64,000 nt of DNA from Phycisphaeraceae bacterium (lineage in GTDB: Bacteria; Planctomycetota; Phycisphaerae; Phycisphaerales; UBA1924): the NCBI GenBank assembly GCA_019636655.1, contig JAHBXB010000003.1:1-64000 (forward strand). Direction: 5' to 3'. Within the stretch, counting starts at the first letter, position 1, and each line of letters starts with the position of its first letter. Positions 20,414 through 57,710 of this stretch are shown piece after piece. The position numbers and the translations under genes are program-made. The notes under the pieces are model-generated. The model worked only from the letters and a program-made list of their open reading frames with translations, was not told the origin of the DNA and did no database searches.

Positions 20414-20420
20414 GGGCTCC

Positions 20421-20426
20421 ATTCTA
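20421..20426 (-). promoter_or_regulatory. Candidate -10 element of gspE
   Basis: On the minus strand this reads TAGAAT, five of six matches to the -10 consensus. It ends 7 nt before the ATG at 20413 and overlaps the alternative ATG at 20422. If used, transcription would begin at or next to the start codon. Confidence 0.4.
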
Positions 20427-24551: not shown

Positions 24552-25006
24552 GCGGGCGAGGGCGAACCGGTGCGCTGCTGCTGGAGGTGCTGCTGGCACT
24601 GGCGATCATGGTCCCGGCGGGGCTGGCGATCCTGGCACTTGTCGGGCAATCGGGTGACACGCTGATCGCGGCGCGGGAGCGGATGATCGCGGCGGACCTG
24701 GCGAACTCGGCGATGGCGAAGATCGAGGCGGGGGTTGAAACGATCGAGACGCTGGATGGTCCGGTCAAGCCATGGGAGGGCGAAGGGGCGGCGGGGTTCG
24801 CGGATGCGCCGCCGCCCGATCAGGAGTGGGAGCTGCAGATCGAGTCCGAGCCGAGCCCGTTCGCGGGGCTCGTGAGGGTCTCCGTGGTGGCCATCAAGAA
24901 CACCGGCGGCACGGCGCGTCGGCTCGCGTCGTGTCACCGGCTGGTGCGGCTTGGCAGGTCCGGCGATGGGCGTGCGACGGAGTGGCCAGCAGGGGGTACG
25001 AGATGA
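24548..25006 (+). CDS. gspI: Minor pseudopilin GspI-like
   Basis: A small pseudopilin of 152 residues. The prepilin site GRGRTG / ALLLEVLLALAIMVPAGLA has Gly at -1 and Glu at +5; LLLEVLLALAI is typical of GspI. The C-terminal body is short, with LQIESEPSPFAGLVRVSVV. It probably forms the pseudopilus tip complex with GspJ and GspK, which follow. The start codon overlaps the gspH stop by 4 nt, and the stop overlaps gspJ in the same way, indicating translational coupling. Confidence 0.82.
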   Translation: MSGRGRTGALLLEVLLALAIMVPAGLAILALVGQSGDTLIAARERMIAADLANSAMAKIEAGVETIETLDGPVKPWEGEGAAGFADAPPPDQEWELQIESEPSPFAGLVRVSVVAIKNTGGTARRLASCHRLVRLGRSGDGRATEWPAGGTR

Positions 25007-25635
25007 GAGCGAGATCGTCCAGGGCGTTCACGCTGGTGGAGGTGCTCGCCGCCGTGGTGTTGTCGGCGATGCTGCTGGGCTCGATCATGGCGTTCCTGTG
25101 GAACCTCTCAAACCGGCGTTCGCAGATGCGCCGGATGGTGGAGCAGATGCAGGCGGGGGGTGTGGTGCTCGGGCAGATCGAGTCGGATCTCTTCGGGTCG
25201 ATGGCGTGGGATCCGGCGGAGGGCGCGGGGATCAAGGGGTCGTCGTCGGCGCTTCGGGTTCTCTCTCGCGGTGTGTGGCCCGATCAGGGGCGCGTGCATG
25301 CGGACCTGCAGGTGTCGGAGTACGCGGTGGAGAGCCGGAGCGGGGCGGTCACGGCGCGGCGGTGGTCGGCGGAGGAGGGTGTGACCGCGCCGCCGGTGGA
25401 GGTGGTTACGGATCAGCTCGAACGCCTGCGGTTTCGGTACTACGACGGCCGGGAGTGGGTGAGCGAGTTTGACAGCGCCCTAGCGGGGCGTCTGCCGGCG
25501 GCGGTTGAGGTGGGCGTGTGGTTTGCGAGGGGAACCGGCTTCGGCGGTGCGACGACCGAGGCCGAGCCGGTGACGCCGCCGGATCGTCTCCGCGTCATGG
25601 TCGTACCAGATGGGGCGAGCGAGGAGGGGTCATGA
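25003..25635 (+). CDS. gspJ: Minor pseudopilin GspJ-like
   Basis: A 210-residue tip-complex pseudopilin. The prepilin segment ARSSRA / FTLVEVLAAVVLSAMLLGS has Glu at +5 but Ala at -1. The helix continues with NRRSQMRRMVEQMQ. The beta-rich body includes LERLRFRYYDGREWVSEFDS, a segment typical of GspJ (strand, then aromatic-rich turn ending in a W-x-x-x-F/W pattern). It starts with a 4-nt ATGA overlap with gspI and ends with the same overlap into gspK. Confidence 0.85.
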   Translation: MRARSSRAFTLVEVLAAVVLSAMLLGSIMAFLWNLSNRRSQMRRMVEQMQAGGVVLGQIESDLFGSMAWDPAEGAGIKGSSSALRVLSRGVWPDQGRVHADLQVSEYAVESRSGAVTARRWSAEEGVTAPPVEVVTDQLERLRFRYYDGREWVSEFDSALAGRLPAAVEVGVWFARGTGFGGATTEAEPVTPPDRLRVMVVPDGASEEGS

Positions 25636-27158
25636 GCGTGCGAGCGTGCGAATCCGTGGAACGGCGCCGCTCGGCGTTCGCGCTGCTGGCCGTGATGATC
25701 GTGGTGGCGATCGGGGCGATGATCGGCACCACGATGATCTATCTTGCAGAGGCGGAAGGGGTGGGCGCGGCGCAGCAGACGCGGATCGATGAATCGAGAT
25801 CGCTCGCGTGGTCGGGTGTTCAGGCGGTGATGGCCGAGTTGGACGCCCAGCGGCTGGATCTGCTGGCGGGGGAGGATCCGCGGGTGACGCGGGAGTGGGT
25901 GGTCTTCGGTGGGCCAGAATCCGCGGCGACGCTTGGACGGGAGATGCCCCGAGGGATGTACCGCCTGGTGGCCACGGACGAGTCGGCGCTGCCGCTGGAG
26001 TCCGAGCCTGCGCGGATCGATCTGAACTCGGCGACTGAGGCGATGCTGGGGGCAGTCGATGGCGTCGGGAGCACACTGGCGCCGAGGGTGATCGAGTTGC
26101 GCGGTTCCCAGCCGGGCGGGTTCTACAGCCTGCATGACCCGGCGCGTGCCGGGGTGTCTCTCCCGCGAGATGCAGGCGAAACGAGGGCGCGAGGGGGAGA
26201 GGCTGCTGAGAGTCGGGCCGGCGGCGCGGCGGGGGTCGGGCATGTCACGGTGTTCAGCTTTGACCCCAACGTGCAGGGAACTCGATCGCCGAACGGGCGG
26301 GGTGAGTCGATCGGCGCTGCTCGCGTGAACGTGAACCGGGATTGGACCGAGGAGATCGGCCGGCGGGTAGCGGAGCAAGCCGGGGCGGAGGCCGCGGCAC
26401 CGATTGTGGCCGCGATGCAGGGGGGGAGGTCGATCCAATCGCCGGAAGATCTGGCACGGCTGCTCGTTCAATCGGGGCTCGCGCCCGATGTGGTGGGCCG
26501 TGCACTTGATGCGTTGACCACGTCGGACGATCCGTACCTGATCGGTCGGGTGGATCTCAACCGGGCGTCGGCGGCCGTGCTGGCGAGCATTCCGGGGATT
26601 GATTCGGCGGCCGCGGCTGCGATCGTCGAGAGGCGGAGCAGCCTGGGGGCGACCGAACGGGGGAACATCGCGTGGCCTCTGGCGGCGGGGGTTCTGACGC
26701 CGGAGCAGTTCGTTTCGGCGGCTGGCTATGTGACCACGCGGTCGTTGCAGTGGCGGGTGGTTGTGGAGGGTGGAATCGCCGAGCCGGAGAGCGGGAGTGG
26801 TGCGGAGGGAGCAGGCCCGGATGCGGTGCTGCGGGATCGGGTGGTCCTGGAGGCGGTTATTGACGTATCGGGGCCTCGGCCGCGGGTTGCCTATCTGCGG
26901 GATGTGAGCCTGGAGGGAGTGGCCCGGGTGTTGGCGGCCCGGGAGAGTCCTGGGGATGTTCGATCCCCAGGGCCTGAACCAGCCGATGCAACCGAGGAGC
27001 CGGCGCCGGTTCGGGGTTCAATGGGGCCTCGGCCGCCAGAGATCGGCTATTCTGGTGATCAGCCGGGGGTCACTCCGGCCGCGCCGGCGGTGTTGGGCTT
27101 GCCCAGGGACGGGCGGGTCGGTCGTTGGTCTGCCGGGCCGCGAGGAGGATCGCGCTGA
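25632..27158 (+). CDS. gspK: Minor pseudopilin GspK, tip-complex protein
   Basis: At 508 residues it is longer than the usual 300 or so. The N-terminal helix RRRSA / FALLAVMIVVAIGAMIG lacks Glu at +5, as is normal for GspK, and has Ala at -1. Two helix-hairpin-helix-like SAM-fold segments typical of GspK follow: RIDLNSATEAMLGAVDGVGS (near residue 130) and RVDLNRASAAVLASIPGIDS (near 310). A disordered Glu/Gly/Ala insert (about 180-230) and a Pro-rich C-terminal tail (about 450-508) account for the extra length. It overlaps gspJ by 4 nt, and its TGA overlaps the gspL ATG. Confidence 0.9.
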   Translation: MSVRACESVERRRSAFALLAVMIVVAIGAMIGTTMIYLAEAEGVGAAQQTRIDESRSLAWSGVQAVMAELDAQRLDLLAGEDPRVTREWVVFGGPESAATLGREMPRGMYRLVATDESALPLESEPARIDLNSATEAMLGAVDGVGSTLAPRVIELRGSQPGGFYSLHDPARAGVSLPRDAGETRARGGEAAESRAGGAAGVGHVTVFSFDPNVQGTRSPNGRGESIGAARVNVNRDWTEEIGRRVAEQAGAEAAAPIVAAMQGGRSIQSPEDLARLLVQSGLAPDVVGRALDALTTSDDPYLIGRVDLNRASAAVLASIPGIDSAAAAAIVERRSSLGATERGNIAWPLAAGVLTPEQFVSAAGYVTTRSLQWRVVVEGGIAEPESGSGAEGAGPDAVLRDRVVLEAVIDVSGPRPRVAYLRDVSLEGVARVLAARESPGDVRSPGPEPADATEEPAPVRGSMGPRPPEIGYSGDQPGVTPAAPAVLGLPRDGRVGRWSAGPRGGSR

Positions 27159-28753
27159 TGCTCAGGAGGGATCGCCCGCAGGTTTCGATTAACCTCGAGA
27201 ACGACCGTTTGACGGCCGTGCTCGCCGATGTCGTCGGGCCGCAGGTCGAGATCCGGGCGTGGCTCGCGGTGGATGTTCCGGCGGGCATCGACTCGACGGA
27301 TGCGGTGGCGATCGGGAAGTGGGTGGGCGAGACGCTTCGGAGCGCGGGGATGTACCGCGCGGCCCGCGCAGGGGGCGTGGTGTTCGCGGTGCCGCGCGGG
27401 GAGGTGGTGCTCAAGCGGGTTGCGTTCCCACCGGGGACGAGCGAAGCGGATTTACCGGGCATGGTCAGGCTGCAGATGGTGCGGCAGTTGACGATGTCGC
27501 CGGAGAACGCGGCGATTGACTTTGCGAGGATCTCCGCGGTTCCGGCGGGCCCGGGCGGGTGCGTGGTGCTGGCGGGGGCGCTGCAGGGGGACCGGCTTGA
27601 CTGGAGGCGGGCGATTGCGAGGTCGGCGGGGGTGAGGCTTGGCAGGGTGGCGCTGCGATCGGCGGGAGGGGCGGCGTTGCTGGCGGAATCGTCGCAGCGG
27701 CGCGGGGGCGCCACGCTGGGGATCGCGCTTGGGAGCGGGTCGACCGAGTTCATCGTGGTGGAGGATGGGCAACTGGTCTTTGCCCGTGCGACGGACCTGT
27801 ACCGGCCCGATTCGGACGATGATGTCGAAGCCTTCTCACAGCGGGTCGCTGTGGAGGCCAAGCGGACGTGGATGAGCTACCGCGGGGCTCCGGAATCCAG
27901 CGAGATCGAGGCTGTGGCGGTGCTGGGTGCGGATGATGCGGCCAAGAGGGTCGCGGCGCAGTGCCGGGAGTCGCTGGCGCTGCCGAGCGAGGCGACGGAT
28001 TACCCGGAGTTTGTCCGTGCGCCATCGGGGATGTCGCCCGCGGAGCGGAGCGTCATGGCGCCCCTCGCGGGGCTGCTGGCGGAGGAGGCGATCGGGCGGG
28101 ACACACTGAACTTTGCCAGCCCGAAGAAGTCACCCGACACGACGGCGATCAGGCGGCAGCGGATGCTGCTGGCGGCGCTGCTGGCGGTGGTGGTCGGCGG
28201 GGGCCTGCTGACGACCGCGAACCTGGCCGTGTCGAGGCAGCGGGCGCGGCTTGCGGAGCTTGAATCCGAGTTCCAGTCGCTCGCAGCGGAGTACGGGGAG
28301 AGCATCCGGACGCGTGCGAGGGTGGAGCACCTGGACCGATGGGTCGGGTCGCGGGTCGATTGGCTGGCGCATGTGGGAGAACTCACGAGCATGCTCCCCG
28401 AGCCTCGATCGGGCGTGCTGGACCGGCTGGACTGCCACGGCGACGTGCGGGTGACGTTCACGCTGCCGAGCCGGCAGAAGCGATACGCGGCCGGGGCGTG
28501 GGCCAACGAGGTGCAGGCGGTGTTCGACGTGGCGGGGACGGTGAAGCGGCGCGAGGTTGCCGATGCGCTGCGGGACCTGCTGGTGAAGAACAGCGAGTAC
28601 GAACTGCAGACCAGGGGACCGGATACGCCGCAGCGGTTTGACTGGTCGCTGACGACGTCGAACCCGCGGCCGCGGAGCGCCGAGCCTCGGGCGACCGACA
28701 AGGGGGCCCGAACGCGGGGGAAGGCGTGGCCGCGGCGGGGGGGTGAGGCATGA
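27158..28753 (+). CDS. gspL: Type II secretion GspL-like protein (PilM/ASKHA fold plus membrane helix)
   Basis: A 531-residue protein. The N-terminal 330 residues have an actin-like PilM/GspL-cytoplasmic pattern: VSINLENDRLTAVLADVVG, ATLGIALGSGSTEFIVVEDG and AVAVLGADDAAKRVAAQ. A single membrane helix LLAALLAVVVGGGLLTTANL lies near residues 340-360. A coiled-coil segment and a ferredoxin-like periplasmic domain follow, as in GspL/PilN. It probably anchors GspE to the membrane platform. The C-terminal 30 residues are basic and low complexity. The ATG overlaps the gspK stop (TGATG), with GAGGAGG about 9 nt upstream. Confidence 0.85.
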   Translation: MLRRDRPQVSINLENDRLTAVLADVVGPQVEIRAWLAVDVPAGIDSTDAVAIGKWVGETLRSAGMYRAARAGGVVFAVPRGEVVLKRVAFPPGTSEADLPGMVRLQMVRQLTMSPENAAIDFARISAVPAGPGGCVVLAGALQGDRLDWRRAIARSAGVRLGRVALRSAGGAALLAESSQRRGGATLGIALGSGSTEFIVVEDGQLVFARATDLYRPDSDDDVEAFSQRVAVEAKRTWMSYRGAPESSEIEAVAVLGADDAAKRVAAQCRESLALPSEATDYPEFVRAPSGMSPAERSVMAPLAGLLAEEAIGRDTLNFASPKKSPDTTAIRRQRMLLAALLAVVVGGGLLTTANLAVSRQRARLAELESEFQSLAAEYGESIRTRARVEHLDRWVGSRVDWLAHVGELTSMLPEPRSGVLDRLDCHGDVRVTFTLPSRQKRYAAGAWANEVQAVFDVAGTVKRREVADALRDLLVKNSEYELQTRGPDTPQRFDWSLTTSNPRPRSAEPRATDKGARTRGKAWPRRGGEA

Positions 28754-29721
28754 AGCCGGCAACCAGGAGAGTTGTATGGGGTGGAGCCGCCGCGGCGGCG
28801 GTGCTGCTGGGCTGGCAGGGGTACCAGAGGCTGTACCGGATTCCGACCGACGAGCTCTCGGCGCGGATCGGGCAGGTCCGGAAGGAGATCGAGGAGCGGG
28901 AGGCGGAGTCGGACCGGCTGCCTGGCCTTCGCAAGCGGCTCGGTGAGATCGCGTCGACGACGCTGGCACGGAGCGAGGAGGGCGTGGCCGCGGCGATGCG
29001 AACGGCGCTCAATGAGATCGCGGCCGAGTGCCGGCTGGATCAGCCGACGGTGACAACGCGAGAGCCGGTGGCGATCAAGAGCCCGGCATCGAAGGCGGGG
29101 GAGTTGAGCAGCAAGTCGGCGCGGGCCCAGGCGGACTTCTATGCGGTCGAGGCGACGGTGCAGGCGGTCGGCAGCATGGATGCGGTGATCCGTGCCGTTG
29201 CGACGCTCGACCATCAGAAATGGGTGCACCGGATCGATCGGTGGGGGATTCGGCCGGTGGACAAGGCGAGGGAGCGGTTTGAGCTCAGCGTTCAGTTGAC
29301 GACGCTCATGATGCCCGATGTCGCGCCGGCGACCGAGATCGCGTTCGGGGACGGGCGTGTGTGGGAGCCGCTCGCCGATGAGCAGTTCGCGAGGTATCGG
29401 CCGATCCTGGCCAATGCGAACTTCCGCGAGCCGCCTGCGGTGCGGGGGCCTGAGGCTCCGGCGGTCGCCTCCGTGGCGCCCGCGTCGCCGGCCTACGAGG
29501 ACTGGAAAGTAACGGCGGTGGTCCGTGGTCGGCACGGCTGGGAGTTGTGGCTTGCCAACGGCAAGTCGGGGCAGCAGACATCGCTCACTCCGGGCTCGCG
29601 CGTGCTGGATGCGACGTTTGTCGACGCGGCGGGCGAGGATGCGACCATCGAGATCGAGGGAACGAGGTACGTGGTGGAGCTGGGGCGGACGCTCGCAGAC
29701 AGAAGGCCAGCGGTTCGGTAG
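28750..29721 (+). CDS. GspM-like protein with a C-terminal GspC/PilP-like domain
   Basis: A 323-residue bitopic protein. The membrane helix VVWGGAAAAAVLLGWQGYQRL (first 20 used) spans residues 8-27. A coiled coil (LSARIGQVRKEIEEREAESD) and a PilO/GspM-like ferredoxin-type domain follow (about 80-200). The last 65 residues (DWKVTAVVRGRHGWELWLAN then SLTPGSRVLDATFV) have the strand order of the GspC homology region or PilP, the part that touches the secretin N0 domain. No separate gspC is in the window, so one chain may do both jobs. Its ATG overlaps the gspL stop by 4 nt, and gspD follows after 74 nt. Confidence 0.75.
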   Translation: MKPATRRVVWGGAAAAAVLLGWQGYQRLYRIPTDELSARIGQVRKEIEEREAESDRLPGLRKRLGEIASTTLARSEEGVAAAMRTALNEIAAECRLDQPTVTTREPVAIKSPASKAGELSSKSARAQADFYAVEATVQAVGSMDAVIRAVATLDHQKWVHRIDRWGIRPVDKARERFELSVQLTTLMMPDVAPATEIAFGDGRVWEPLADEQFARYRPILANANFREPPAVRGPEAPAVASVAPASPAYEDWKVTAVVRGRHGWELWLANGKSGQQTSLTPGSRVLDATFVDAAGEDATIEIEGTRYVVELGRTLADRRPAVR

Positions 29722-29783: not shown

Positions 29784-29788
29784 GGAGG
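29784..29788 (+). promoter_or_regulatory. Ribosome binding site fixing the gspD start
   Basis: GGAGG lies 7 nt upstream of the GTG at 29796. It selects this codon over the earlier in-frame ATG at 29547, which lies inside gspM and would precede the signal peptide with 83 residues of poor sequence. Confidence 0.75.
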
Positions 29789-29795
29789 TGCAGCA

Positions 29796-32700
29796 GTGGA
29801 TCGGCAACGACAGCCCAAGCGAACGCGTTTCTCTGGTCCGGCGGCCCTGCTGGTGGCGGTCGGCCTGCCTATCTCGGCATGGGGATGGCATGATCGGGCG
29901 GAGTTGCCGCCGGTGGCTCCGGTGGACCGGGGGGTGGAGTCTCACGGGCAGCCGCCGCGTGCGGAGCCCGCCACAGCGGCGGTCGAGTCCGGCGAGACGG
30001 CGGAACCGCCCAAAGCGCCGGCCGTGAAGGACGTGACGCTGCGGTTCAACTTCAAGGACACGCCGTACGAGCAGATCATGGACTTCGTGGCCCGGCAGAC
30101 GGGGCTGCCGGTGATCCGGGAGACGGAGCTGCCGAAGACTCCGGTGACGTTCATCAGCGCCTCGGACTTTTCGCTCGAGGAAGCGATCGACGTGCTCAAC
30201 CGGATGCTGTTCATGCACGGGGTGCAGCTCCGGCGAGAGGAGAACTTCCTGCTGCTGACCAAGCTGGAGAACATGCGGGCGCTTGGTCCGAAGTTCCTGG
30301 ACCAGGTCCCCGGTGATGTCGCCGCGGCGCAGATCGTGACGGTGGTGGTGCCGCTCCACAACGCGCAGGCCGCGCCGCTTGCCGAGCAGCTCAAGTCGCT
30401 GGTGAGCCCGATCGGTGCGATCACGCCCCTGCCGCAGCAGAACGCGGTGATCCTGGTCGACACGGCGGCGCAGTGCCGGCGGCTGCGATCGGTCATCAAC
30501 GATCTCGATGCCGAGGCGCCGTCGGACATGCAGGTGCAGTTGTTCACTCTGGAGCACGCGAAGGCGGCGGCGGTGTTCAACGCGCTCAAGGGACTGGTGT
30601 CGGAGAAGCGGTCGACGATCATCATCGACAAGGACGGGCAGCAGCGCAAGGTCAACGACGATTCCACGCCGGGCCTCAACCTGCAGCCTGACGATCGGAC
30701 CAACTCGATCGTTGCGGTCGGACCCAAGGCGAGGCTCGATACCGTCAAGCAGTTGATCGCGATGCTCGACCGGCCGGAGGGGGCGGGAGACTCGCGCGAG
30801 GTGATGACGTTTGTGCTGGCGGGGACGTCGCCCGATGAGGCCGCGAAGAGCCTCGGGGCGCTGTTTGCGAAGGTGGACGCTGCGGAGCGTCCGACGCTGC
30901 TGCCGATGGACCAGCAGGGGAAGCTCGCAGTGGTCGGGACGTCGGCCCAGCTGGCGCAGGCCGCGGCGGTCATCGGCGAGTTGGACCCTGGCGCCCAGCC
31001 GACGCTCGGCGTTGGGAAGCCGGCGGCGACACCCGAGACGCGGGCCGCGGTGGTGCACCTGAGCCACGTGACGCCGCAGGCGGCGATGGGGGTGCTCGAG
31101 CGGCTGCTGGTCGGACGGCAGCGGGTCATGCTGCGGTATGCGGCCAGCCCCGATGGAAAGGGGTTAATTGTCAGCGGTCCGACGGAGGATGTGCGGCAAC
31201 TGGAGGCAATCGTCTCGGGGCTTGATACCGCGCCGAGCCTGGACCGGGAGGTGCGGCTGCTCCGGCTTAGCGCACAGCGGCCGGCGGAGGTGCTGAGCCG
31301 GGCCGTCGAGTTGTTCGGCCAGACGACGGTGGCGAAGCGGGAGCCGGTCGCGGCGTCGCTCGATGCGGCGAGCCGCACGGTGACGGTGGTCGGATCGAGG
31401 GAGGCGATCGCGGCATTCGCCGAGGTGCTCCAGACCGTGGAGTCGGGGGCTCGGATTGACCGCGAGACACGGCTGATGGAGCTTCGATACGCCAAGGCCG
31501 AGGAACTGGCGGCGACGCTCCGCGACCTCGTCAAGTCGAGCAGCCTGTTCACCGGCGATGGCGGCGTCGTGCCCGAGCTGGAATCTGTCGAGCAGACCAA
31601 CTCGCTGGTGGTCTCGGCACGCCCGGAGCAGATGACGATCGTTGAGCAGCTCGTTCGTACGCTCGACGCCCAGCAGGCGGGGGAGCGGCCTCCGCTCCGT
31701 GTGCTGCGGCTGACGAGCACGGATGCCGCCGCGATGGCGCAGGTCCTCAACCAGACCTACCAGCAGCGTCCGCCCGAGCAGCGGGTGAAGTTCCCGGTGG
31801 ACATCCAGGCGGACGCGGCGACCAACACGCTGCTGGTTTCGGCGCACGCCGGCCTGTTTCCGGAGATCGAAGGGATCGTCGGCCAGCTCAACGACGCCAA
31901 GCTGGACTCTTCTGGCCGCGAGATCCGGATCTTCCCGCTCAAAGTGGCACCGGCCGAAGAGTTGGCGCGGACGCTCGATCAGATGTACCCGCAGCCGCCG
32001 ATGCCGCTGGATCCGCGGACCCGTCAGCCCCGGCCCGATCTGCAGCCGCCGCGGGAGGTGGTTGTGCGGGCGGATCGTCTGACCAACTCACTGATCGTCG
32101 ATGCGCCGTCGGCGCGTCTGGCGGGCTTCGAGCAGCTGGTGAAGCAGCTTGACCAGCAGAAGCTGCCGGAGAACGTGGAGCTGCGCACGTACCGGGTCCA
32201 GCGGGCGCAGTTGGATGCGGTGGCGTCGACGCTGCGGAGTCTCGCGGCGAGCAACAGCCTGTTGAAGGGGGCGACCGGCGCCGCATCCGGGGTTGGCGCG
32301 GCGATCACCATCACGACCGAACCGATCAGCCGGGCGCTGATTGTCAGCGGGCCGTCGCCGATATTCGCCGAGGTCGAGCGGGTCCTCAAGGAGCTGGACG
32401 CCCCGCCGGCCCAGCCGCCGACGGGGCTCAAGATGTATTCGCTGCAGCACGCGCGGGCCGAGCGGCTGCAGCCGCTGCTGTCGCGGCTGCTCGCGGCGAG
32501 GCTTCGCGAATGGCAGGCGAAGGATGGAGTGGTCGCGGATCCCGCGGCGCTCCTCGATGTGGCATCGGACGCCACGACGAACGCGATGATCATTTCGGCC
32601 CCGGAGTCGATCCAGCAGGTTGCGGGTGAGTTAATTAAGTCACTGGACACACCGGCGGCTGCGACAGGCCGCTCGGTGGTCCGGGTGATCCCGCTCAGCC

Positions 32701-35700
32701 ACGCGAATGCGCAGCAGGCCGCCGCGGCGATCAATGCCGCGTTGCCGTCCATGGATCTGCCATCGGGCGGACGCGTGTCGGTGACCCCGGTGGGCAGCGG
32801 TGATGAGTCTCGGTCGCTGGTTCTGTCCGGTGTTGAGGGGGACCTGAAGCAGATCGAATCGCTGATCAGTTCGCTCGATGTCAAGCCAGCGACGCAGGAC
32901 GCGATCGACGTCCGCACAATCCCGCTCAAGCACGCGCGGGCCGAGTCGGTGGCGCCGATGGTGGAGCAGTTGCTCGCCAGGCCGAGCCTTGTCGACCAGT
33001 TGCCGCAGTGGCAGAAACTGGACTACCTGCGCACGACCAAAGGAGAGCTGGCTCCGGTGCGAGTGGTTGCCGATCGGCGTCTGAACACCGTGGTGATCAC
33101 CGGCCCGGCCGGGGTCATCGAACTGGCGGGGCAGGTGGTGGCGGATCTCGATGTGGAGCCGGAGAGTGCGGATCTCGCGAGACCGGTTCGTGTGATCTCG
33201 ATCGAGAGCGCGGATGCGGCGGCCGTCGCCGCGAACCTGCAGGCCATCTTCGCGGAGGAGACCGGGAACGAGCCGAAGCCGAGCATCCGCGTTGATGCCG
33301 AGAGCAACCTGCTGATCGTGCGGGCGAGCCAGGCCCAGATGGCGACGATCACGCCCGTCATCGAGAAGATCGAGCAGGCGACGGCCAACTCGAGCCGCGA
33401 GTTGCGGCTCATCCCGATCGACAAGTCCAAGGCCGACGCCAGGCTCATCGCCGAGACCTTGCAGCGGCTGCTGGAGCAGCGGGGGGGGATGAAGGTCGAG
33501 GTCATTTCCGCTGAAGAACTCCTGAAACGAGGCGGCTCTGAGAGGCCGGTCGAGGGCGGCTCGGGCAAGGGACGAAGCCTGCTGTGGCCAGCGAATCCGG
33601 CCGCGGGAATCTCCCAGATGCTCGCCGCGGCGGCGCTCGGGCACCCGGGGCCCGGTCCTGCGGTGATGCCATGGGCGTTGGCCGAGGGTTCCGAGCTGGA
33701 CGACGAACCGGCGGAAGGGACCGTGACGATCGCGGTTGATGCGGCGACCAACTCCCTCATCGTGGTTGGGGCGTCGAGGACGGCGAACCGCGTGCTTGCG
33801 CTGGCTCAGCAGCTCGAGCGGCAGATGCCGGGCGAGCCCGGGAAGGTGCGGGTCATCACGCTGCCGGAGGGGGTGGATGCGACCAGCGTGGCGCGGCTCG
33901 TGGGTTCGGTGGTGTCGCAGATCGGGAGCTCAAGTGCAGCGAATCCCGGCGGGTTTTCGGGCAGGGTGTCCGCCGAGGCGGATCCCGCCGGCGGGGCGTT
34001 GATCGTCACTTCGAACGAAACCGACTTCGCGGTGCTGCGGGAGTTGATCGCGGCGGTGTCGAGGCCCGGTCCGTCGGCGAGCCTGACCGTCAAGGTGTAC
34101 TCGCTGTCGAATGTCACCGCGCAGCGGGCTCTTCGCGCTGCGAGCGACCTCCTGAGCGCAGAGCCGCGGGGGTCGCAGGCGCGGCGGCTTCGATCGCTCG
34201 ACCTGAAGATGGAGACGCCGGACGGGAAGCCGGTGTCGGGGATCATCGATCCGGCGTCGGTGCGGATGACCGCCGATCCGGGCGGGAGTGCGCTGATCGT
34301 CGCCGCGCCGCAGGAGGCGATGGTCCTGCTGGATCGGTTCATCTCGATCATCGATCAATCACCGGTTGCTTCGCGCGCAGCGATCCGGCGGTTCGAACTG
34401 AAGAACGCGACGGCGGAAGTGACCGCGACAACGCTGCAGCGTGCGTTCGACGGAGCGAGGCAGGGGGGCTCCGCCGCGGAAACGCCAAGGGCGGTGTTCC
34501 TGGCAGACACGAGGACGAACTCGTTGCTGGTCGCCGGCACCGATGCACAGTTCGCGGAGGCCGAGCGTCTGCTGGTCTCCCTTGATACACCGATGGCCGA
34601 CGATGGGACGCGGGTGGCGATCCTGCCGCTCCAGGTGGCGAGGCCGACGGCCGTGCGGCAGGTGATCGAGAGCGTCCTGATCGGGAGAGATCCCGCGAAG
34701 AAGGAGCGTGTCCAGATCACAGCCGCGGACGACTCGAACATGCTCGTGATCCGGGCGGAGCCGGATCAGATCGAGCAGGCCAAGGGCGTTATCGCGGAGA
34801 TGGATAAGGCGGAGACGGCGGGGCTTCCGATCCGGTCCATCACGCTGAATCGTGCGGATGCGGCGCTGGTGGCCCAGTCGCTGCAGCAGTTTTTCGACGA
34901 ACGCGCCCGCGCGATGAGCCGGCCCGGGCAGCGGGCGAGGCAGCGCCAGGTCGCGGTCGTGGGAGATCGGCGGAGCGGCACGCTCGTGGTGTCGGCGTCG
35001 GACGAGGACTTTGCCCAGGTTGACGGGCTGGTCAAGCAGTTCGACGCGGCGACGTCGCGGGAGCTGCAGATCAAGGTGATCCCGCTGGCGAACGCCCGCG
35101 CTTCGGAGCTTCGGCAGACGATCGACAGCATGGTCTGGCAGGCCGCGATGCGGCTTCTCGACGGGGCCGCGGGCCAGCAGCGGGACTCGCTCATGGTCGA
35201 GGTGGATGAGCGGTCCAACAGCGTGGTGGCGATGGGGAGCGGAGAGGCGCTGGAGACGGTGGAGCGGGTGGTGCGGGCGCTCGACCAGCCGCGGGCCGCG
35301 GAGGCGGCGCTGGCGATCCGCGCGATCCGTGTCGCGAACGCCGATCCGCGCACGGTGGCGCAGGCGATCCAGAGCGTGACGACGACGCCGAGTTGGCCGC
35401 GGTGGCGGGGGCCGGACCCCGATGCGGTCCGTGCCGAGGTGGATCCCCGTTCTCGTGCCGTCGTGCTGATCGGGCGGGCGGACCGGCTTGATCAGGCGGA
35501 GCAGTACGCGAAGCAACTGGATTCCGCGGCGACCGCGCCGGACCAGGCCATCGAGACCATCTCGCTGAAGTTTGCCAGGGCGGACCAGATCGCGGCAAGC
35601 CTCGAGCGATTCTTCAGGGAGCGATCGCGCAGCCAGGGACAGAATGATGCGAGGGTGTCGCTGATCGGTTCGCGCGACGGCAATGTCCTGGTCGTGTCGG

Positions 35701-38700
35701 CGCCGGGCGAGGAGATGGGCATCGTCAAGCAGGTGCTGGCGCAGATGGACCAGCCCGACGAGGGGGAGAACACCCGGCGGGAGCTGTTCCAGCTCAAGAA
35801 CGCTGATGCGAGGGAGTTGGCGACCGCGTTGCAGCAGCAGTTCCCGCGGTCCATGTCGTCGCGCGAGGGGCTGGTCATCGTCACGCCGCAGGCGAGCACG
35901 AACTCGGTCGTGGTGTCGTCGCCGTCCGAGCTGTTCGAGAAGGTGTCGGCGCTCATTGCCCAGCTCGATGCGCCGCCGACGCCGGATAACTCACAGTTTG
36001 TGACCGTGACGCTGGGGTCGGCAAAGGCCGAGGACGTGGCCGAAGCGATCAGGAGGGCGCTGCCGCCGCAGGTGAAGGTGGCGGTGACGCCGGTCCGTCG
36101 GACGAACTCGCTGCTCCTCACCGGGTCGCAGGAGGCGATCAAGATCGTCATGGAGCAGATCGAGAAGCTCGATGCGCAGCCCGCACGCAGCGCCGTCGAG
36201 TTTCGGCGCATCAAGCTCGAGAACGCGGATGCGTACGAACTGGCGCAGGTTGTCCGTTCGCTCGTCTCCCGCCCCGCCGGGCCGACGGACCCGGCGCCGG
36301 TGATCTCGTCGTCGAGCAAGGACAACACGCTCCTGATCTCCGCTACGGTGGACCAGCAGGAGGAGATCCGCAAGATCCTCGACCAGCTCGATGTCCCGAG
36401 CGCGAACACCAGGACGATGGAGTTCGTGCCCCTGAAGTTCGCGGATGCCAGAGCCACCGCGACCGCCCTGGACGTGTTCTTCGGGAAGAGCGCCCCGGAG
36501 GCCGCCTCGCCCGCGGCGAGGAACGTCACGATCATCGCGAATCCGCTCAGCAAGAGCCTGGTCATTGCGGCGGACCAGGGCGAGTGGCCCGCGGTCCGTG
36601 CTCTGCTCGAGAAGCTTGACAACGAGGCGTACGACCAGTCGCGGCGGCTTGAGATCATCTCGCTTCGGCATGCCGACGCGGTCAGCCTGGCGCAGACGCT
36701 CAGCGAGGCGTTTTCGGCCCCGCTGCGGGCCGAGGTGGAGCGGCAGCGGCTCGCGCTGCAGAGATTCCAGGGCGGCGTGCTTGGCGCGATCCCGCGGCTC
36801 AATGGGGGCCGGGAGGCGCCGAGCGTGCTGATCCAGCCGGAGGAGTCGGTGAGCGTCGTCGCCGAGCGGCTGACCAACTCGCTCATCATCTCCGCGGTAC
36901 CGCCGCTGGTCGAGCGCATCCGTGCGGTAGCGACCCAGCTCGATGTGCCCGAGTTCTCGAGCCTTCCCGAGGCGAGGGTGATTCCCCTGCGCATCGGACC
37001 GGCAACGCAGATCGCCAACGCGCTGAGGCAGATGTACACCGACAGCCTTCCCTCCGGACCTGCTTCGCAGCGGGGGTTGCGGTCGGTGGTCATTACGGGT
37101 GAGGACCGGAGCAACACGCTCATCGTGCGGGCGGACGAGTCGCAGTTTGCGCGCATCAAGGTGCTCACGGATTCGCTGCAGCAGGAGGGGGATCGGAGCC
37201 GGACGTCGGTGCGGGTGCTCAGGCTCGCCAACATCCCCGCCGGTCGGGTTATGCTGACCGTCCGGAACACGTTCGCGGCCGTGGCGAAGGAGGGGGGCGA
37301 GGCGCTGGCGCTGGATGTCGACCGCACGGCCAACGCCCTTGTTGTCGCCAGCAGCGAGAAGGTCTACGAACAGATCCGCGCCGTTGTCGAGGAACTCGAC
37401 GCCGCGCCGGCATTCAAGGACGACAAGGGAAATGCGAACGCGGTGCCGGGGCTCGGGCAGACCATCTTCATTATCGACGTCGAGAACAACTCGCCGGAGC
37501 AGATCCGTAAGCAGTTGGAGGATCTCGGGCTCACGCGGCCGCAGCCCCAGGATCGTCCCGGGGTCGTTGGCGAACCGGTCACCATCGTTCCTCTGGCCAG
37601 CCGGAGGGCCCTGGCGGTTGTCGCCTCCCCGCAGGATGGGCAGGCGGTGGCCATGCTGGTTCGGACGCTCGACGCCGCCCCCGCATTCGCCGAGCAGCAT
37701 GTGGCGATCGTTCGGTTAAAGACGGGCCAGGCGCCCGCGATTGCAGCGGCCATGGAGAATCTGATCAAGGCCAGAGGGACGCCGGATTCGGCGAGTTCGC
37801 CCGCCGCGGCGCTTGTTGAGCAGGTGCGTCGGCTGAGCATCCACCGGGACGGCGTGGCGGAGCCGAATCTCGCCCTGGACCTGAGCAAACCGATCCGCAT
37901 CATCGGCGAGACGCAGACCAACTCGATCGTCATCGTATCGGCCCAGGGCAATGTGGGCGCGCTCACGGACCTCGTCAAGCTCCTTGATCGGCTCCCGGTC
38001 GGCGAGGCGGTGGTTGTTCGCTTCTTCCCTCTCCAGAATGCGTCGGCGACCCGGCTGCAGGGTGTCATTCGGGAGCTCTTTGCCCAGGGGGATCGGCTCA
38101 GGCAGACGCCGGCGACGAACATCCGCGGCGAGCCCACCACCGAGGTCGGGCGGGCACTGGCGGGTCAGGTCGCGGTGTCCGTCGATGACAGGACCAACGC
38201 GCTGGTGGTGGCGGGCCGCGAGGAGGCCGTGGCGCTCGTTGAGATCATGGTGAAGCAGCTCGACAGCGACCGGGCCGCATCGTGGATCGAGCCTGTGGTG
38301 ATCCCGCTCCGGCACGCGGACGCGACCAAGCTCGCCAGGGACCTCCGCTCGGTGCTGGTTGATGGCGTGAAGGACTCCCCGGAAGCGACCGCGCTGCAGC
38401 GGCAGGTGGCGAGGATCCGGGTGGCTATCCAGGGCGGTCGGCCGCAGGGACCGGATGCGGCGCCGGCGGGCGCCGATGGCCGTCTGGAAACGGACATCTT
38501 CGCCCCGATGTCGAGCCTTGTCATCCAGCCCGAAGAGCAGCTGAACGCGCTGATCGTCCTGGGAAGCACGGCGAATGTGAGGGCGGTTGCCGAACTCGCC
38601 AAGATGCTCGACGTGCCCGCGGCGGCGGCGGAGAACTCGGTCCGGATCTATCCGCTCCGCTTCGCGGCGGCCGACCGCGTGTCCGGCGTGCTCAGGGATG

Positions 38701-41249
38701 TGTTTCGTCAGCAGGCGGCGGCCGGGACGATCCGCAAAGAGGACGACCTTGTGATCTCGCCCGATCCGCGGACCAACTCGCTGGTTGTCAGCACGAGCCC
38801 GCGGAGTTTCATCATCGTCGAGAAGTTGATGCAGCAACTCGACGGACAGCCGATGTCCCCGACGGTCGGTCTAAGCGTGGTTCCGGTGCCCGATGGCAAC
38901 GTCGTGGAACTGGCGCCGAAGATCGAGCGGCTCATGCGCGACCGGATCGATTCGGCAACCCGCGGCGGGCAGGTCCGGTCACCGAGCGATACGTTCTCCG
39001 TTACGGCGGAGGCGTCGACACACTCGCTGATCGTGGTGGCGACGGACGAGAACCTGCAGATGGTCAAGGATCTGGTGAAGGTCCTTGTGAGCGATGCCCG
39101 GGCGCTCGCCGCGTCGGAGACCGTTGACGTTGTCTCGGCCCACTCGGCCCGTGCGGACGATCTCGCCGCGGCCGTGCGTGAGTTGTACGTCGACAAGCAG
39201 AACGCCAAGCGGGGCGCTGATGCGGTCAAGATCTCCGCCGATGCGAGGCTGAACGCCCTCGTAATCCGGGGTACTCCGGAGGACGTCGCCGCGGTCCGGG
39301 ACCTCGTGGCGAGGCTTGAGGCAACACCCGTCGCCGCGGTCACGGAGATTAAGCGGATCGAGCTGAGACGGGCTGATGCGGCCGACGCCGCTCGCCTGCT
39401 CCAGAACATCCTGGCCGGGCGCCCGATCGCCGGAGGACGGGCTGTCGGGTCCCGGCAGGCTCAGTTGCTGCGGTTCATGCAGCAGGCCGAGGCGACGAAC
39501 ATCAAGGACAAGACCGGCAGGCCGCCGACCGAGGCAGAGATATCGGGCGCGATCCAGGAACAGATCACGCTCACGCCGGAACCGCGGACCAACTCGGTCG
39601 TGATCGTTGCGCCGACGAGGTTGATGCTGCTGATCGAGCAACTGATCGCCGACCTTGATACCACGTCGGCGGGCGAGCGGACGATCGAGATCTTCCGGCT
39701 CAAGAATGCGGATTCGAGGGCGATGGCGGAGGTGCTCCGCGATCTTTTCAACCTACGGCAGCAGGGCAACACGCTTGTGCTCGTGCCGAGCCGGGAGCAG
39801 GAGCCCGAGCAGGAGGGGCCGTCGTTCGGCCCTCCCTCGGGTGTCGTGGCCTCGAACCTCTATCCGTCGTCGGATGAGCGCCAGCAACTGGCCATCACCA
39901 TCGATGCCCGAACCAACAGCCTGCTCGTTTCGGCCACGGTCGAGTACCTGGAAAAGGTCAGGCAGGTGGTCAACGAGCTCGATTCGGTGGAAGCCAGCGA
40001 GCGCGAGCAACTCGTCTACCCGCTGAGGAACACCCGCGCGGTCGACATCGCCCGTACCCTGCGGGACTACTTCAAGGGTGAGGCCGACACGCTGCGGCAG
40101 ACGCTCGGTTCCGACCGGGCCGGCTCGCTGATCCGCCTTCTGGAGCGGGAGGTCACCGTCCAGGGTGACGAGAAGAGCAACCGCCTGATTGTCGGGGTCT
40201 CACCCCGGTACCGCGAGGCGATCGACGCGATCGTGCGAGAGCTGGATTCGACGCCGCCGCAGGTGATGATCCAGGTGCTGCTCGCGGAGGTGTCGCTCGA
40301 TACGGCGAGCCAGTGGGGAGTGGACTTCTCGGTCGGCCCCTTTGGCGGCGAGGGCTACAAGATCGCGTCGCTCGCGGCCGGGACCGGTGTGGCGTCTGCG
40401 CTGGGAGTTCCCAATCTCGCGGTGTCGTCGGTTGACTTTGAACTGTTGATCCGTGCCTTGGAGGTGCAGGGGCGGCTCGAGGTGCTCAGCCGGCCGCAGA
40501 TCCTGGTCAAGAACAACGAGCGGGCCCGGATCCAGGTGGGCGAGAACGTCGCGCTGGCCAATGGCGTCGAGGTGCTCAGCCAGACCGGGAATACCCGGGC
40601 GGATGTGGAGCGTCGCGACATCGGCATCATCCTTAATGTCACGCCATCGATCAGCGCCGACGGGTTTGTGAGCATGGAGGTCCAGCCGGAGATCTCGCGT
40701 TTGAGTTCGCGGACGACGCAGATCAGCGAGGAGTTCCAGGCGCCGGTCATCGATACACGTAAGGTCGAGACCAACGTGTCCGTTCGGGACGGGGAGACGA
40801 TCGTCATCGGAGGCCTGATCCAGTCGCGGGACGATGAGCGTCGCACGAAGATCCCCGTGCTCGGGGACATTCCGATCGTCGGCGATGTGTTCAAGTCGAC
40901 GAATTTCATCCACGAGAAGAACGAGCTGCTGGTGATCCTGACGCCGCGGGTTATCCGCTCCGGCACGCCAAGGGCCGGCGAGATCCTTCGCCAGATGACG
41001 CTCGACGAAATCAAGAAGACCACCGGGGCCGAGCGGGTGCTCGAGTCGCTCCCGCCTCAGGTGCAGGATCCTCGCGGCGAGCCGACGCCGTGGCCAAGCG
41101 ACGAGAGCGGCGCCCAGGAGTTGTGGCTCCCGCCGATCGAGGCCAGGCCATCAGGTGGTGGGAGTGCGCCGCCCATCCGGACGGCGCCTCGCCACAGCCC
41201 CTACGCCCCACCAGATCCCAACAGTGCTTCGGGATCGGGGGAACGCTGA
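29796..41249 (+). CDS. gspD: Giant type II secretion secretin GspD, about 3817 aa
   Basis: The outer-membrane secretin that forms the T2SS exit pore; typical GspD is about 650 residues. A basic start and hydrophobic segment (FSGPAALLVAVGLPISAWGW) form a signal peptide, followed by a Pro/Glu linker. The N0 domain lies at about residues 76-165 (VKDVTLRFNFKDTPYEQIMD onward). About 39 tandem N1-type domains fill residues 180-3489. Each has an opening strand like VRVIPLxxAxA, a helix, then D-x-x-TNSLIVSA, a helix and a closing LD. One ordinary secretin domain follows (3490-3728): VMIQVLLAEVSLDTASQWGV, EVLSRPQILVKNNERARI, TNVSVRDGETIVIGGLIQ, KIPVLGDIPIVGDVFKS and LLVILTPRVI. A Pro-rich tail closes it. 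No frameshift or stop interrupts the frame. The stop overlaps the next gene (TGATG). Confidence 0.95.
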   Translation: MDRQRQPKRTRFSGPAALLVAVGLPISAWGWHDRAELPPVAPVDRGVESHGQPPRAEPATAAVESGETAEPPKAPAVKDVTLRFNFKDTPYEQIMDFVARQTGLPVIRETELPKTPVTFISASDFSLEEAIDVLNRMLFMHGVQLRREENFLLLTKLENMRALGPKFLDQVPGDVAAAQIVTVVVPLHNAQAAPLAEQLKSLVSPIGAITPLPQQNAVILVDTAAQCRRLRSVINDLDAEAPSDMQVQLFTLEHAKAAAVFNALKGLVSEKRSTIIIDKDGQQRKVNDDSTPGLNLQPDDRTNSIVAVGPKARLDTVKQLIAMLDRPEGAGDSREVMTFVLAGTSPDEAAKSLGALFAKVDAAERPTLLPMDQQGKLAVVGTSAQLAQAAAVIGELDPGAQPTLGVGKPAATPETRAAVVHLSHVTPQAAMGVLERLLVGRQRVMLRYAASPDGKGLIVSGPTEDVRQLEAIVSGLDTAPSLDREVRLLRLSAQRPAEVLSRAVELFGQTTVAKREPVAASLDAASRTVTVVGSREAIAAFAEVLQTVESGARIDRETRLMELRYAKAEELAATLRDLVKSSSLFTGDGGVVPELESVEQTNSLVVSARPEQMTIVEQLVRTLDAQQAGERPPLRVLRLTSTDAAAMAQVLNQTYQQRPPEQRVKFPVDIQADAATNTLLVSAHAGLFPEIEGIVGQLNDAKLDSSGREIRIFPLKVAPAEELARTLDQMYPQPPMPLDPRTRQPRPDLQPPREVVVRADRLTNSLIVDAPSARLAGFEQLVKQLDQQKLPENVELRTYRVQRAQLDAVASTLRSLAASNSLLKGATGAASGVGAAITITTEPISRALIVSGPSPIFAEVERVLKELDAPPAQPPTGLKMYSLQHARAERLQPLLSRLLAARLREWQAKDGVVADPAALLDVASDATTNAMIISAPESIQQVAGELIKSLDTPAAATGRSVVRVIPLSHANAQQAAAAINAALPSMDLPSGGRVSVTPVGSGDESRSLVLSGVEGDLKQIESLISSLDVKPATQDAIDVRTIPLKHARAESVAPMVEQLLARPSLVDQLPQWQKLDYLRTTKGELAPVRVVADRRLNTVVITGPAGVIELAGQVVADLDVEPESADLARPVRVISIESADAAAVAANLQAIFAEETGNEPKPSIRVDAESNLLIVRASQAQMATITPVIEKIEQATANSSRELRLIPIDKSKADARLIAETLQRLLEQRGGMKVEVISAEELLKRGGSERPVEGGSGKGRSLLWPANPAAGISQMLAAAALGHPGPGPAVMPWALAEGSELDDEPAEGTVTIAVDAATNSLIVVGASRTANRVLALAQQLERQMPGEPGKVRVITLPEGVDATSVARLVGSVVSQIGSSSAANPGGFSGRVSAEADPAGGALIVTSNETDFAVLRELIAAVSRPGPSASLTVKVYSLSNVTAQRALRAASDLLSAEPRGSQARRLRSLDLKMETPDGKPVSGIIDPASVRMTADPGGSALIVAAPQEAMVLLDRFISIIDQSPVASRAAIRRFELKNATAEVTATTLQRAFDGARQGGSAAETPRAVFLADTRTNSLLVAGTDAQFAEAERLLVSLDTPMADDGTRVAILPLQVARPTAVRQVIESVLIGRDPAKKERVQITAADDSNMLVIRAEPDQIEQAKGVIAEMDKAETAGLPIRSITLNRADAALVAQSLQQFFDERARAMSRPGQRARQRQVAVVGDRRSGTLVVSASDEDFAQVDGLVKQFDAATSRELQIKVIPLANARASELRQTIDSMVWQAAMRLLDGAAGQQRDSLMVEVDERSNSVVAMGSGEALETVERVVRALDQPRAAEAALAIRAIRVANADPRTVAQAIQSVTTTPSWPRWRGPDPDAVRAEVDPRSRAVVLIGRADRLDQAEQYAKQLDSAATAPDQAIETISLKFARADQIAASLERFFRERSRSQGQNDARVSLIGSRDGNVLVVSAPGEEMGIVKQVLAQMDQPDEGENTRRELFQLKNADARELATALQQQFPRSMSSREGLVIVTPQASTNSVVVSSPSELFEKVSALIAQLDAPPTPDNSQFVTVTLGSAKAEDVAEAIRRALPPQVKVAVTPVRRTNSLLLTGSQEAIKIVMEQIEKLDAQPARSAVEFRRIKLENADAYELAQVVRSLVSRPAGPTDPAPVISSSSKDNTLLISATVDQQEEIRKILDQLDVPSANTRTMEFVPLKFADARATATALDVFFGKSAPEAASPAARNVTIIANPLSKSLVIAADQGEWPAVRALLEKLDNEAYDQSRRLEIISLRHADAVSLAQTLSEAFSAPLRAEVERQRLALQRFQGGVLGAIPRLNGGREAPSVLIQPEESVSVVAERLTNSLIISAVPPLVERIRAVATQLDVPEFSSLPEARVIPLRIGPATQIANALRQMYTDSLPSGPASQRGLRSVVITGEDRSNTLIVRADESQFARIKVLTDSLQQEGDRSRTSVRVLRLANIPAGRVMLTVRNTFAAVAKEGGEALALDVDRTANALVVASSEKVYEQIRAVVEELDAAPAFKDDKGNANAVPGLGQTIFIIDVENNSPEQIRKQLEDLGLTRPQPQDRPGVVGEPVTIVPLASRRALAVVASPQDGQAVAMLVRTLDAAPAFAEQHVAIVRLKTGQAPAIAAAMENLIKARGTPDSASSPAAALVEQVRRLSIHRDGVAEPNLALDLSKPIRIIGETQTNSIVIVSAQGNVGALTDLVKLLDRLPVGEAVVVRFFPLQNASATRLQGVIRELFAQGDRLRQTPATNIRGEPTTEVGRALAGQVAVSVDDRTNALVVAGREEAVALVEIMVKQLDSDRAASWIEPVVIPLRHADATKLARDLRSVLVDGVKDSPEATALQRQVARIRVAIQGGRPQGPDAAPAGADGRLETDIFAPMSSLVIQPEEQLNALIVLGSTANVRAVAELAKMLDVPAAAAENSVRIYPLRFAAADRVSGVLRDVFRQQAAAGTIRKEDDLVISPDPRTNSLVVSTSPRSFIIVEKLMQQLDGQPMSPTVGLSVVPVPDGNVVELAPKIERLMRDRIDSATRGGQVRSPSDTFSVTAEASTHSLIVVATDENLQMVKDLVKVLVSDARALAASETVDVVSAHSARADDLAAAVRELYVDKQNAKRGADAVKISADARLNALVIRGTPEDVAAVRDLVARLEATPVAAVTEIKRIELRRADAADAARLLQNILAGRPIAGGRAVGSRQAQLLRFMQQAEATNIKDKTGRPPTEAEISGAIQEQITLTPEPRTNSVVIVAPTRLMLLIEQLIADLDTTSAGERTIEIFRLKNADSRAMAEVLRDLFNLRQQGNTLVLVPSREQEPEQEGPSFGPPSGVVASNLYPSSDERQQLAITIDARTNSLLVSATVEYLEKVRQVVNELDSVEASEREQLVYPLRNTRAVDIARTLRDYFKGEADTLRQTLGSDRAGSLIRLLEREVTVQGDEKSNRLIVGVSPRYREAIDAIVRELDSTPPQVMIQVLLAEVSLDTASQWGVDFSVGPFGGEGYKIASLAAGTGVASALGVPNLAVSSVDFELLIRALEVQGRLEVLSRPQILVKNNERARIQVGENVALANGVEVLSQTGNTRADVERRDIGIILNVTPSISADGFVSMEVQPEISRLSSRTTQISEEFQAPVIDTRKVETNVSVRDGETIVIGGLIQSRDDERRTKIPVLGDIPIVGDVFKSTNFIHEKNELLVILTPRVIRSGTPRAGEILRQMTLDEIKKTTGAERVLESLPPQVQDPRGEPTPWPSDESGAQELWLPPIEARPSGGGSAPPIRTAPRHSPYAPPDPNSASGSGER
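30333..40262 (+). repeat. About 39 tandem N1-like (Secretin_N) domain repeats inside gspD
   Basis: I counted the repeats by the recurring strand D-x-x-(T/S)N-(S/A/T)-L-(I/V)-V-(S/A/R), for example DAATNTLLVSA, ADRLTNSLIVDA, DPRTNSLVVST and DARTNSLLVSA. Each is followed by a helix ending in LD. The average period is about 85 codons. The copies are well diverged, with no long identical DNA between them, so the expansion is old. Repeats 3-5, 9, 11, 15, 16 and 21 have lost the TN pair. Repeats 14, 27, 31, 33, 37 and 38 carry 25-70 residue insertions between the first helix and the TNSL strand. Confidence 0.9.
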
Positions 41250-41770
41250 TGCGAGCCAGACGCCGCGTGAGCGCATGGGGAAGCGTCGGCATCGTGGCCG
41301 CTGGCGTCCTGTCGGGATGCGTGGCGGACGGCCCCGAGCCGCCGCGCCCGCCAAGGGATCTCCCGCCGCAGCCCTCCGGGCTGATCGTTGACCGCATCGT
41401 CATGACAGTCCCAACGATCCCGGAAGACTCGGATCGAAACGGGTACTACGACCTCACGCCGGTGACGGTCTACCTGTTTGATCGCCGGTACATCCCACCC
41501 ATCGCGGTGACGGGGCAGTTCGAGTTTCGGATGCTGGACCAGAAGGACCGTGTCCTCGCGACGTGGCGATTCGACGAGCAGAAGACCGCTGGGGCGCAGC
41601 GCCGGTTCATGGTCGGACCCGGGTACGCGTTTGAACTGAACCTGCTCGACGTCGGGTCTGACCATCTGCCCGTGGATGAGGCCGTGCTGCAGGTCACCTT
41701 TACCCAAGATGGGCAGAAGCCCGTGGCTCCCAGGGCCGGCACCAGCGTTGTCGTGGGGCGGGCGCGGTAG
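41249..41770 (+). CDS. Lipoprotein coupled to the giant secretin, pilotin candidate
   Basis: A 173-residue predicted lipoprotein. The signal peptide ends in the lipobox LSGC, with Cys at residue 24. A Pro-rich stretch follows (PEPPRPPRDLPPQPS), then a beta-rich domain with LIVDRIVMTVPTIPEDSDRN, VYLFDRRYIPPIAVTGQFEF and VLQVTFTQDGQKP. I do not recognise the fold. The ATG overlaps the gspD stop (TGATG), so its translation is tied to that of the secretin. Known secretin pilotins are lipoproteins that carry the secretin to the outer membrane. The role here is inference from position and lipidation, since sequence similarity to GspS or PilF is not evident. Confidence 0.8.
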   Translation: MRARRRVSAWGSVGIVAAGVLSGCVADGPEPPRPPRDLPPQPSGLIVDRIVMTVPTIPEDSDRNGYYDLTPVTVYLFDRRYIPPIAVTGQFEFRMLDQKDRVLATWRFDEQKTAGAQRRFMVGPGYAFELNLLDVGSDHLPVDEAVLQVTFTQDGQKPVAPRAGTSVVVGRAR

Positions 41771-57708: not shown

Positions 57709-57710
57709 AC

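Follow-up and report, generated by a model that had tools for sequence, protein, structure and literature searches.

The gene at positions 29796-41249 of the window (the whole stretch of 64,000 nucleotides of Phycisphaeraceae DNA that was analysed) encodes a GspD-type secretin, referred to below as the giant, which is conserved and old and whose periplasmic part is lengthened to 39 N1 domains. The GspD type of secretin is already known; what is new is the number of periplasmic domains, usually about four, which comes to some forty in this protein and to as many as about sixty in one of its relatives. To our knowledge, no GspD-type secretin longer than the giant was known, and no description of a secretin of this kind was found among the open-access literature matches listed.

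The gene is one uninterrupted frame on the forward strand, as an earlier note on this DNA had stated, running from a GTG start at 29796 to a stop codon that ends at 41249 (3817 aa); the strong Shine-Dalgarno sequence claimed in the same note was located as a GGAGG at 29784-29788, upstream of the GTG. The encoded protein begins with a signal-peptide-like N-terminus, judged by eye (29796-29885), and continues with an N0-like domain (residues 84-144, 30045-30227), 39 contiguous N1 domains (residues 184-3486, 30345-40253; recognised by Pfam, by a trained profile and by the predicted fold of five of them) and a Secretin barrel/gate domain (residues 3554-3721, 40455-40958). The last of these, the normal secretin domain expected at the end of the protein, was matched by Pfam Secretin with E 5.1e-49 and is kept across 12 aligned giants. 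The proposed order of N0, N1 tract and secretin is correct, N0 being a tentative assignment from a weak match to Pfam type_II_gspD_N0 below its cut-off (16.8 bits, cut-off 27) in the expected place and from its conservation in the relatives, among which the row of locus L036 is too short to show it.

The N1 domains were counted in two ways. Pfam Secretin_N matched 33 stretches of the giant (1064.9 bits in total), while a profile started from one repeat and grown over 12 giants recognised 39 domains at E <= 0.001, a figure to be read with caution, since the giant and 11 relatives had themselves served to train this profile; the independent count is the 33 of Pfam. The trained profile gave no matches in 240 composition shuffles and none in 12 reversed proteins. 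The figure of about 39 N1-like domains put forward from the sequence alone stands, and the search with the Secretin_N and Secretin profiles matched the 33 stretches and, besides them, one Secretin domain. The tract is compact: 35 of the 38 linkers between N1 domains measure 7-10 aa, and no gap between domains exceeds 40 aa.

Comparison with known structures supported the assignment of the repeats. A profile of five mid-tract N1 domains (A3) matched the GspD of PDB entry 5wq7, which comprises 15 chains, with 3.3e-24 over three consecutive N-domains. When the five repeats were modelled with AlphaFold2 as a single chain, five clean beta-alpha-beta-beta-alpha units were obtained (pLDDT 87, pTM 0.36), whose best matches in Foldseek were T2SS secretins, with a poor superposition (TM 0.27, rmsd 33.6 Å). 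The single-chain model of the last four N1 domains with the barrel (pLDDT 79, pTM 0.46) gave 5zdh as its best match (4.7e-28, TM 0.36, rmsd 20.4 Å). By their predicted fold, the domains of the tract are true N1 domains; a fixed arrangement of the domains like that in GspD finds no support in these single-chain models.

The giant is the last gene of a T2SS operon with the order GspF, GspG/H/I-like, GspJ, GspK-like, GspL/PilM-like, GspM-like, giant. Upstream of these genes, and on the strand opposite to the giant, lies the GspE ATPase (18734-20422, reverse strand; Pfam T2SSE, E 5.6e-132). The forward-strand genes start with GspF (22054-23250; T2SSF, E 3.5e-50), followed by three pseudopilins recognised by eye from their N-terminal sequences, namely a GspG-like major pseudopilin (23377-23907, GFTLLEVM), a GspH-like one (23922-24551, FTVIEL) and a GspI-like one (24548-25006). 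The GspJ pseudopilin (24772-25635, with a true start probably near 25000) was matched by Pfam T2SSJ and N_methyl, the GspK-like minor pseudopilin (25518-27158) by HHH_3 and weakly by T2SSK, and the GspL/PilM-like protein (27125-28753) by PilM_2 (E 2e-8), whereas the GspM-like protein (28750-29721; profile A5) was recognised by its place and by weak Pfam matches. Searches with tblastn recovered GspK and GspL from all 11 relative loci, and GspJ and GspM from 10 of the 11, the exception being L036. No GspC gene was recognised in the T2SS gene neighbourhood of the giant. The C-terminal region of the GspM-like protein looks, by eye, like an HR domain of the GspC/GspB type; Pfam T2SSB matched two of 11 members (best 0.0033), and PDB searches gave no support for homology of this part to GspC. 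The neighbours are of the T2SS type, including GspJ and the GspK-like protein, and a type IV pilus neighbourhood is absent at the giant, the four PilT matches over the cut-off all lying on other contigs of the genome, outside the operon of the giant; they bear neither way on a role in uptake. Elsewhere in the window, a SecDF-like protein of 1204 aa is encoded at 13321-16935, and two long overlapping frames (57654-60461 and 60230-63103, 935 and 957 aa) have no Pfam match at E 0.01.

Directly downstream, a small lipoprotein-like gene (41249-41770, forward strand; LSGC motif seen by eye) has its ATG overlapping the stop codon of the giant. Because the gene product looks like a lipoprotein and 10 of the 11 relative loci have a homologue adjoining the giant, it is a candidate pilotin. 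The GspM-like protein is a partner of the giant: profile A5 was matched in all of the 12 genomes with a giant, compared with one of nine without (G020, weak, 4e-9), which argues that the giant travels with it. T2SSF, present with 7-20 matches each in all 21 near genomes, is mute about loss of the operon from the genomes without a giant because it occurs there in so many copies.

The same architecture is present in other Phycisphaerae, where the earlier note proposed to look for it. Within the near genomes (the genome under study and 20 relatives), 12 of 21 have a giant frame, of 3569-4834 aa; nine of the 20 relatives lack it, and some of these are fragmented MAGs, so that absence can be a gap. 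In a survey of the class, taken from the titles of the named relatives to be Phycisphaerae, 223 of 298 genomes matched the C-terminal profile A1 at 1e-45, and frames of at least 2300 aa were found in at least 78 of the 298, the longest one listed reaching 6169 aa. The giant was also considered as a trait of all planctomycetes and rejected as such at the sensitivity used: in a search of 294 genomes of the phylum (E <= 1e-70), the 26 homologues listed that do not belong to the class have frames of 513-1413 aa. One record with the title Gemmataceae holds a frame of 1968 aa with nine N1 domains. A Secretin_N survey of the phylum, in which up to 19 candidates per genome were scored and which is therefore no measure of domain number, pointed to a protein of 2701 aa outside the class (G451, locus L166) with 15 N1 domains detected and no detected barrel; a similar protein of 1515 aa with six N1 domains detected occurs in G465 (L167).

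The named genomes with giants are mostly MAGs of Phycisphaerales or Phycisphaerae, together with some titled Verrucomicrobia, with frames up to 4311 aa. The titles Akkermansia muciniphila, Cyanobacteria and Leptolyngbya (L066, L048 and L051) look like those of mislabelled MAGs. Frames above 1600 aa occur, by our count of the matches listed, in 28 of the 116 genomes of one verrucomicrobial order (above 2300 aa in 26), and among 240 genomes sampled from the verrucomicrobial phylum the long frame was found only in the query genome (E <= 1e-60). In a quick tree of 131 secretin domains (LG+G4, support by SH-aLRT only, midpoint root), a branch with support 99 parts 102 rows, comprising the giants and the two-gene forms described below, from 29 rows of ordinary length; the protein of G407, 1318 aa and long-branched, is placed with the giants. 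The verrucomicrobial giants (L120-L122) lie nested, with support 83-94, among the rows of the class, and the order of the N1 domains in the verrucomicrobial G610 is collinear with that in G017 (21 of 22 domains), G061 (18 of 18) and G062 (20 of 21). Taken with the collinearity, this nested position points to a possible gene transfer.

Within the giant, the N1 domains have a median identity to one another of about 27%. When reciprocal best domains were compared between proteins, all 39 were collinear with those of the relatives G004 and G006, at median identities of 57% and 49%, and 31-38 were collinear with those of eight further relatives; with G017, only nine of 13 were. Since a one-to-one domain order is kept between genera while the domains of one protein are so divergent, the N1 tract is, to judge from its sequence, old and maintained. 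A recent tandem expansion was ruled out by the same internal identity of about 27% and by the orthology of the domains between genera. The tracts of relatives differ by blocks of whole domains, and the fetched one-gene giants contain between 24 and 61 N1 domains, the highest number belonging to the longest relative, with the frame of 6169 aa (G062, L126). Compared with families f6, f8, f15, f16, f17, f19 and f22 and with the verrucomicrobia, the order of the N1 domains in the giant agrees only slightly better than random, and orthology of single domains is not claimed at that distance.

Natural two-gene forms of the giant also exist. They were studied in families f17 and f19, at 20 loci (L140-L162) picked for frames of about 1500-1900 aa, and in 18 of these loci the N1 tract is divided between two adjacent genes. 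The exceptions are L151 (G201), whose upstream tract lies in two frames of 1638 and 1298 aa (a broken gene or a sequencing error), and L155, where the second gene stands alone in the examined sequence. The upstream gene encodes N1 domains and no barrel (2384-3583 aa in 15 complete frames), and the downstream gene, of 1518-1908 aa, encodes 11-15 N1 domains and the barrel. In 14 of the 18 two-gene loci, a match to the GspM profile precedes the upstream gene, N0-like sequence could be read by eye in three of five upstream N-termini inspected, and a simple hydrophobicity test found a hydrophobic stretch after a near-start methionine in all 18 downstream proteins.

The break between the two genes falls within one N1 domain. 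The tails of the upstream proteins match the first part of the N1 profile (up to position 42) in 18 of 18 cases, equalled by at most one of 200 shuffles, and the heads of the downstream proteins match it through to position 66-68 in 17 of 18, equalled by at most two of 200; it should be noted that each half-domain match, taken singly, is weak (3 to 16 bits) and that the criteria for the halves were set after the sequences had been seen. Twelve of the 17 head matches start at model position 32-45 and five at 8-24; the head of L156 does not stand out from its shuffles (14 of 200 as good), and the upstream tail of L145 carries, in addition, one more, nearly whole N1 domain. The loop that holds the break is also the one that receives all the insertions of at least 15 aa seen in 519 N1 domains of 12 giants, all at model positions 25 or 31. 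The upstream proteins end in a basic stretch: over their last 25 residues the net charge is 0 to +11, and above zero in 17 of 18.

Four one-gene relatives (G022, G094, G117 and G121) show a gap of 214-418 aa in the domain count, respectively 14, 10, 11 and 11 domains before the barrel. Judged by eye, this gap opens with the first half and closes with the second half of an N1 domain; when six half-domain queries were compared with the four proteins, 10 of 24 matches fell in the gap and the others in other domains or in the barrel, and each protein has another large gap elsewhere. The sequence within the gap (L123, L127, L163, L164) appears by eye to be of low complexity, with hydrophobic, signal-peptide-like pieces. 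We read the two-gene forms as having arisen by fission or fusion at one loop, the step between one and two genes being less certain. The sequences favour the view that the two proteins of a two-gene locus make one structure, because the break lies inside a single N1 domain.

Taken together, it is rather probable that the giant is the GspD outer-membrane channel of a T2SS with its N-domains stacked as rings into a long tube, the periplasmic part having grown to 39 N1-type domains, where three are usual. By analogy with known secretins, ring stacking of the 39 N1 domains is likely: about fifteen copies of the protein would assemble so that each N-domain forms one ring of the stack. The barrel would sit in the outer membrane, and the tube would descend from it to N0, whose end would meet the inner-membrane platform (GspE, F, L and M). 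At about 2.5-4 nm per ring, an estimate from published secretins, its length would be roughly 100-150 nm, and our best inference is a tube of stacked rings measuring roughly 100 nm. In the two-gene forms the tube would consist of two stacked segments, the joining N1 domain taking one half from each chain. Consecutive N-domains are described as forming stacked rings in PulD and in Thermus PilQ (PMC6882859, PMC5745081); PulD with its bound partner has an ordered barrel that reaches about 20 nm into the periplasm (PMC6882859), and Thermus thermophilus PilQ has six stacked N-domain rings and a length of 350 Å (PMC5745081). The ring stack proposed in the earlier note fits these cases as well as the GspD match over three N-domains, and the two-gene breaks, which that note did not have, add to the evidence; the proposal is partly supported, the stacking itself being what we infer.

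One alternative is that only a few domains adjacent to the barrel form rings and that the other 30 or more hang as a flexible chain, which would connect the outer membrane with the inner one or with the cell wall, or bind substrate. The absence of a fixed inter-domain arrangement in the single-chain models (pTM 0.36) speaks for such a tether or scaffold, as do the variable N1 number and the occurrence elsewhere of N1-tract proteins without a detected barrel; since the latter exist in other planctomycetes, N1 tracts may serve without a channel. However, linkers that nearly all measure 7-10 aa are unlike those of a loose tether, the identity and order of each domain are conserved between genera, and a break inside a domain, as in the two-gene forms, would be needless for a plain chain, so that we consider this alternative rather improbable.

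Less probable again is a polyprotein, cleaved after export into a secretin of normal size and separate N1 products. The existence of natural two-gene forms would agree with it, and so would the low-complexity, signal-peptide-like pieces found 10-14 domains before the barrel in four one-gene relatives, but the giant itself lacks any such stretch, and the secretin part of the two-gene forms retains 11-15 N1 domains. As for a sequencing or assembly artefact or a chance frame, long open frames do occur on both strands of this GC-rich DNA, and yet this possibility is negligible: it is refuted by homologues in independent genomes, including the one-contig assemblies G275, G051, G181 and G022, and the GC content at the three codon positions of the gene is 0.70/0.47/0.86. 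No repeated 24-mers were found in the DNA of the whole gene, which is therefore not a collapsed or inflated tandem array.

If the stacked-ring tube is correct, its likely use would be to move large material, secreted enzymes or a polymer, through an envelope presumably deeper than an ordinary secretin can span, without letting the cargo leak into the periplasm. The bridging of a wide planctomycete periplasm, which the earlier note had offered as the purpose, fared less well and is weakly supported. An enlarged periplasm is described in Planctopirus, which belongs to another planctomycete class; against this purpose stand the short frames of the 26 out-of-class homologues listed, the possession of the giant by some verrucomicrobia, its absence from nine of 20 near relatives (some of them fragmented MAGs) and the variation from 24 to 61 N1 domains among one-gene giants, because of which a fixed ruler is also disfavoured. 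In PMC8882080, Phycisphaeraceae are said to be without the crater structures of other planctomycetes, and an uptake of whole polysaccharides is given as proposed for planctomycetes; that the giant T2SS serves such an uptake is speculation. It is a doubtful, though conceivable, extension that these proteins form a new class of conduit of 35-60 rings and about 100-200 nm, in some lineages assembled out of two segments that are secreted separately and held together by a split N1 domain. In Phycisphaerae and some of the Verrucomicrobiota, such a conduit would carry macromolecules (perhaps whole polysaccharide, as in "selfish feeding") between the outer membrane and an inner membrane far away from it.

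Should the rings stack, this would be by far the longest secretin channel known to us, and would show that secretin length evolves through gain and loss of whole domains. The depth of the envelope of these bacteria would become testable, as would the crossing of large polymers or enzymes, and the split-domain forms would exemplify a natural channel built from two chains in register.

Among known systems, the T2SS secretin GspD/PulD is closest to the giant, sharing with it the N1-type domains, the secretin domain, the N0-like start and the GspE-M operon, and GspD structures are the best matches of both models of the giant. The usual architecture of GspD has three N1-type domains, compared with 39 here, and the matched PDB GspD chains that reach the barrel have at most 657 aa, compared with 3817. 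The GspD family TIGR02517 scored 1101.4 bits on the giant (cut-off 351.35), a sum over 19 stretches that is inflated by the repeats; by the same inflation TIGR02515 (PilQ; 384.1 bits, cut-off 284.35), below the GspD score, and TIGR02516 (T3SS; 341.4 bits, cut-off 238.45) also exceeded their cut-offs. The planctomycete proteins of G451 and G465 share long N1 tracts with the giant and differ in that a secretin domain was not detected in them. The secretin DR_0774 of Deinococcus radiodurans (PDB 8co1) is among the best PDB matches of the tract (E 7.4e-21), its chain being of 740 residues. Thermus thermophilus PilQ, the secretin of a type IV pilus and of DNA uptake, offers a parallel in form, a lengthened periplasmic stack of N-domains such as the giant would also possess; it differs in having six rings rather than 40, and in belonging to a pilus rather than to a T2SS operon.
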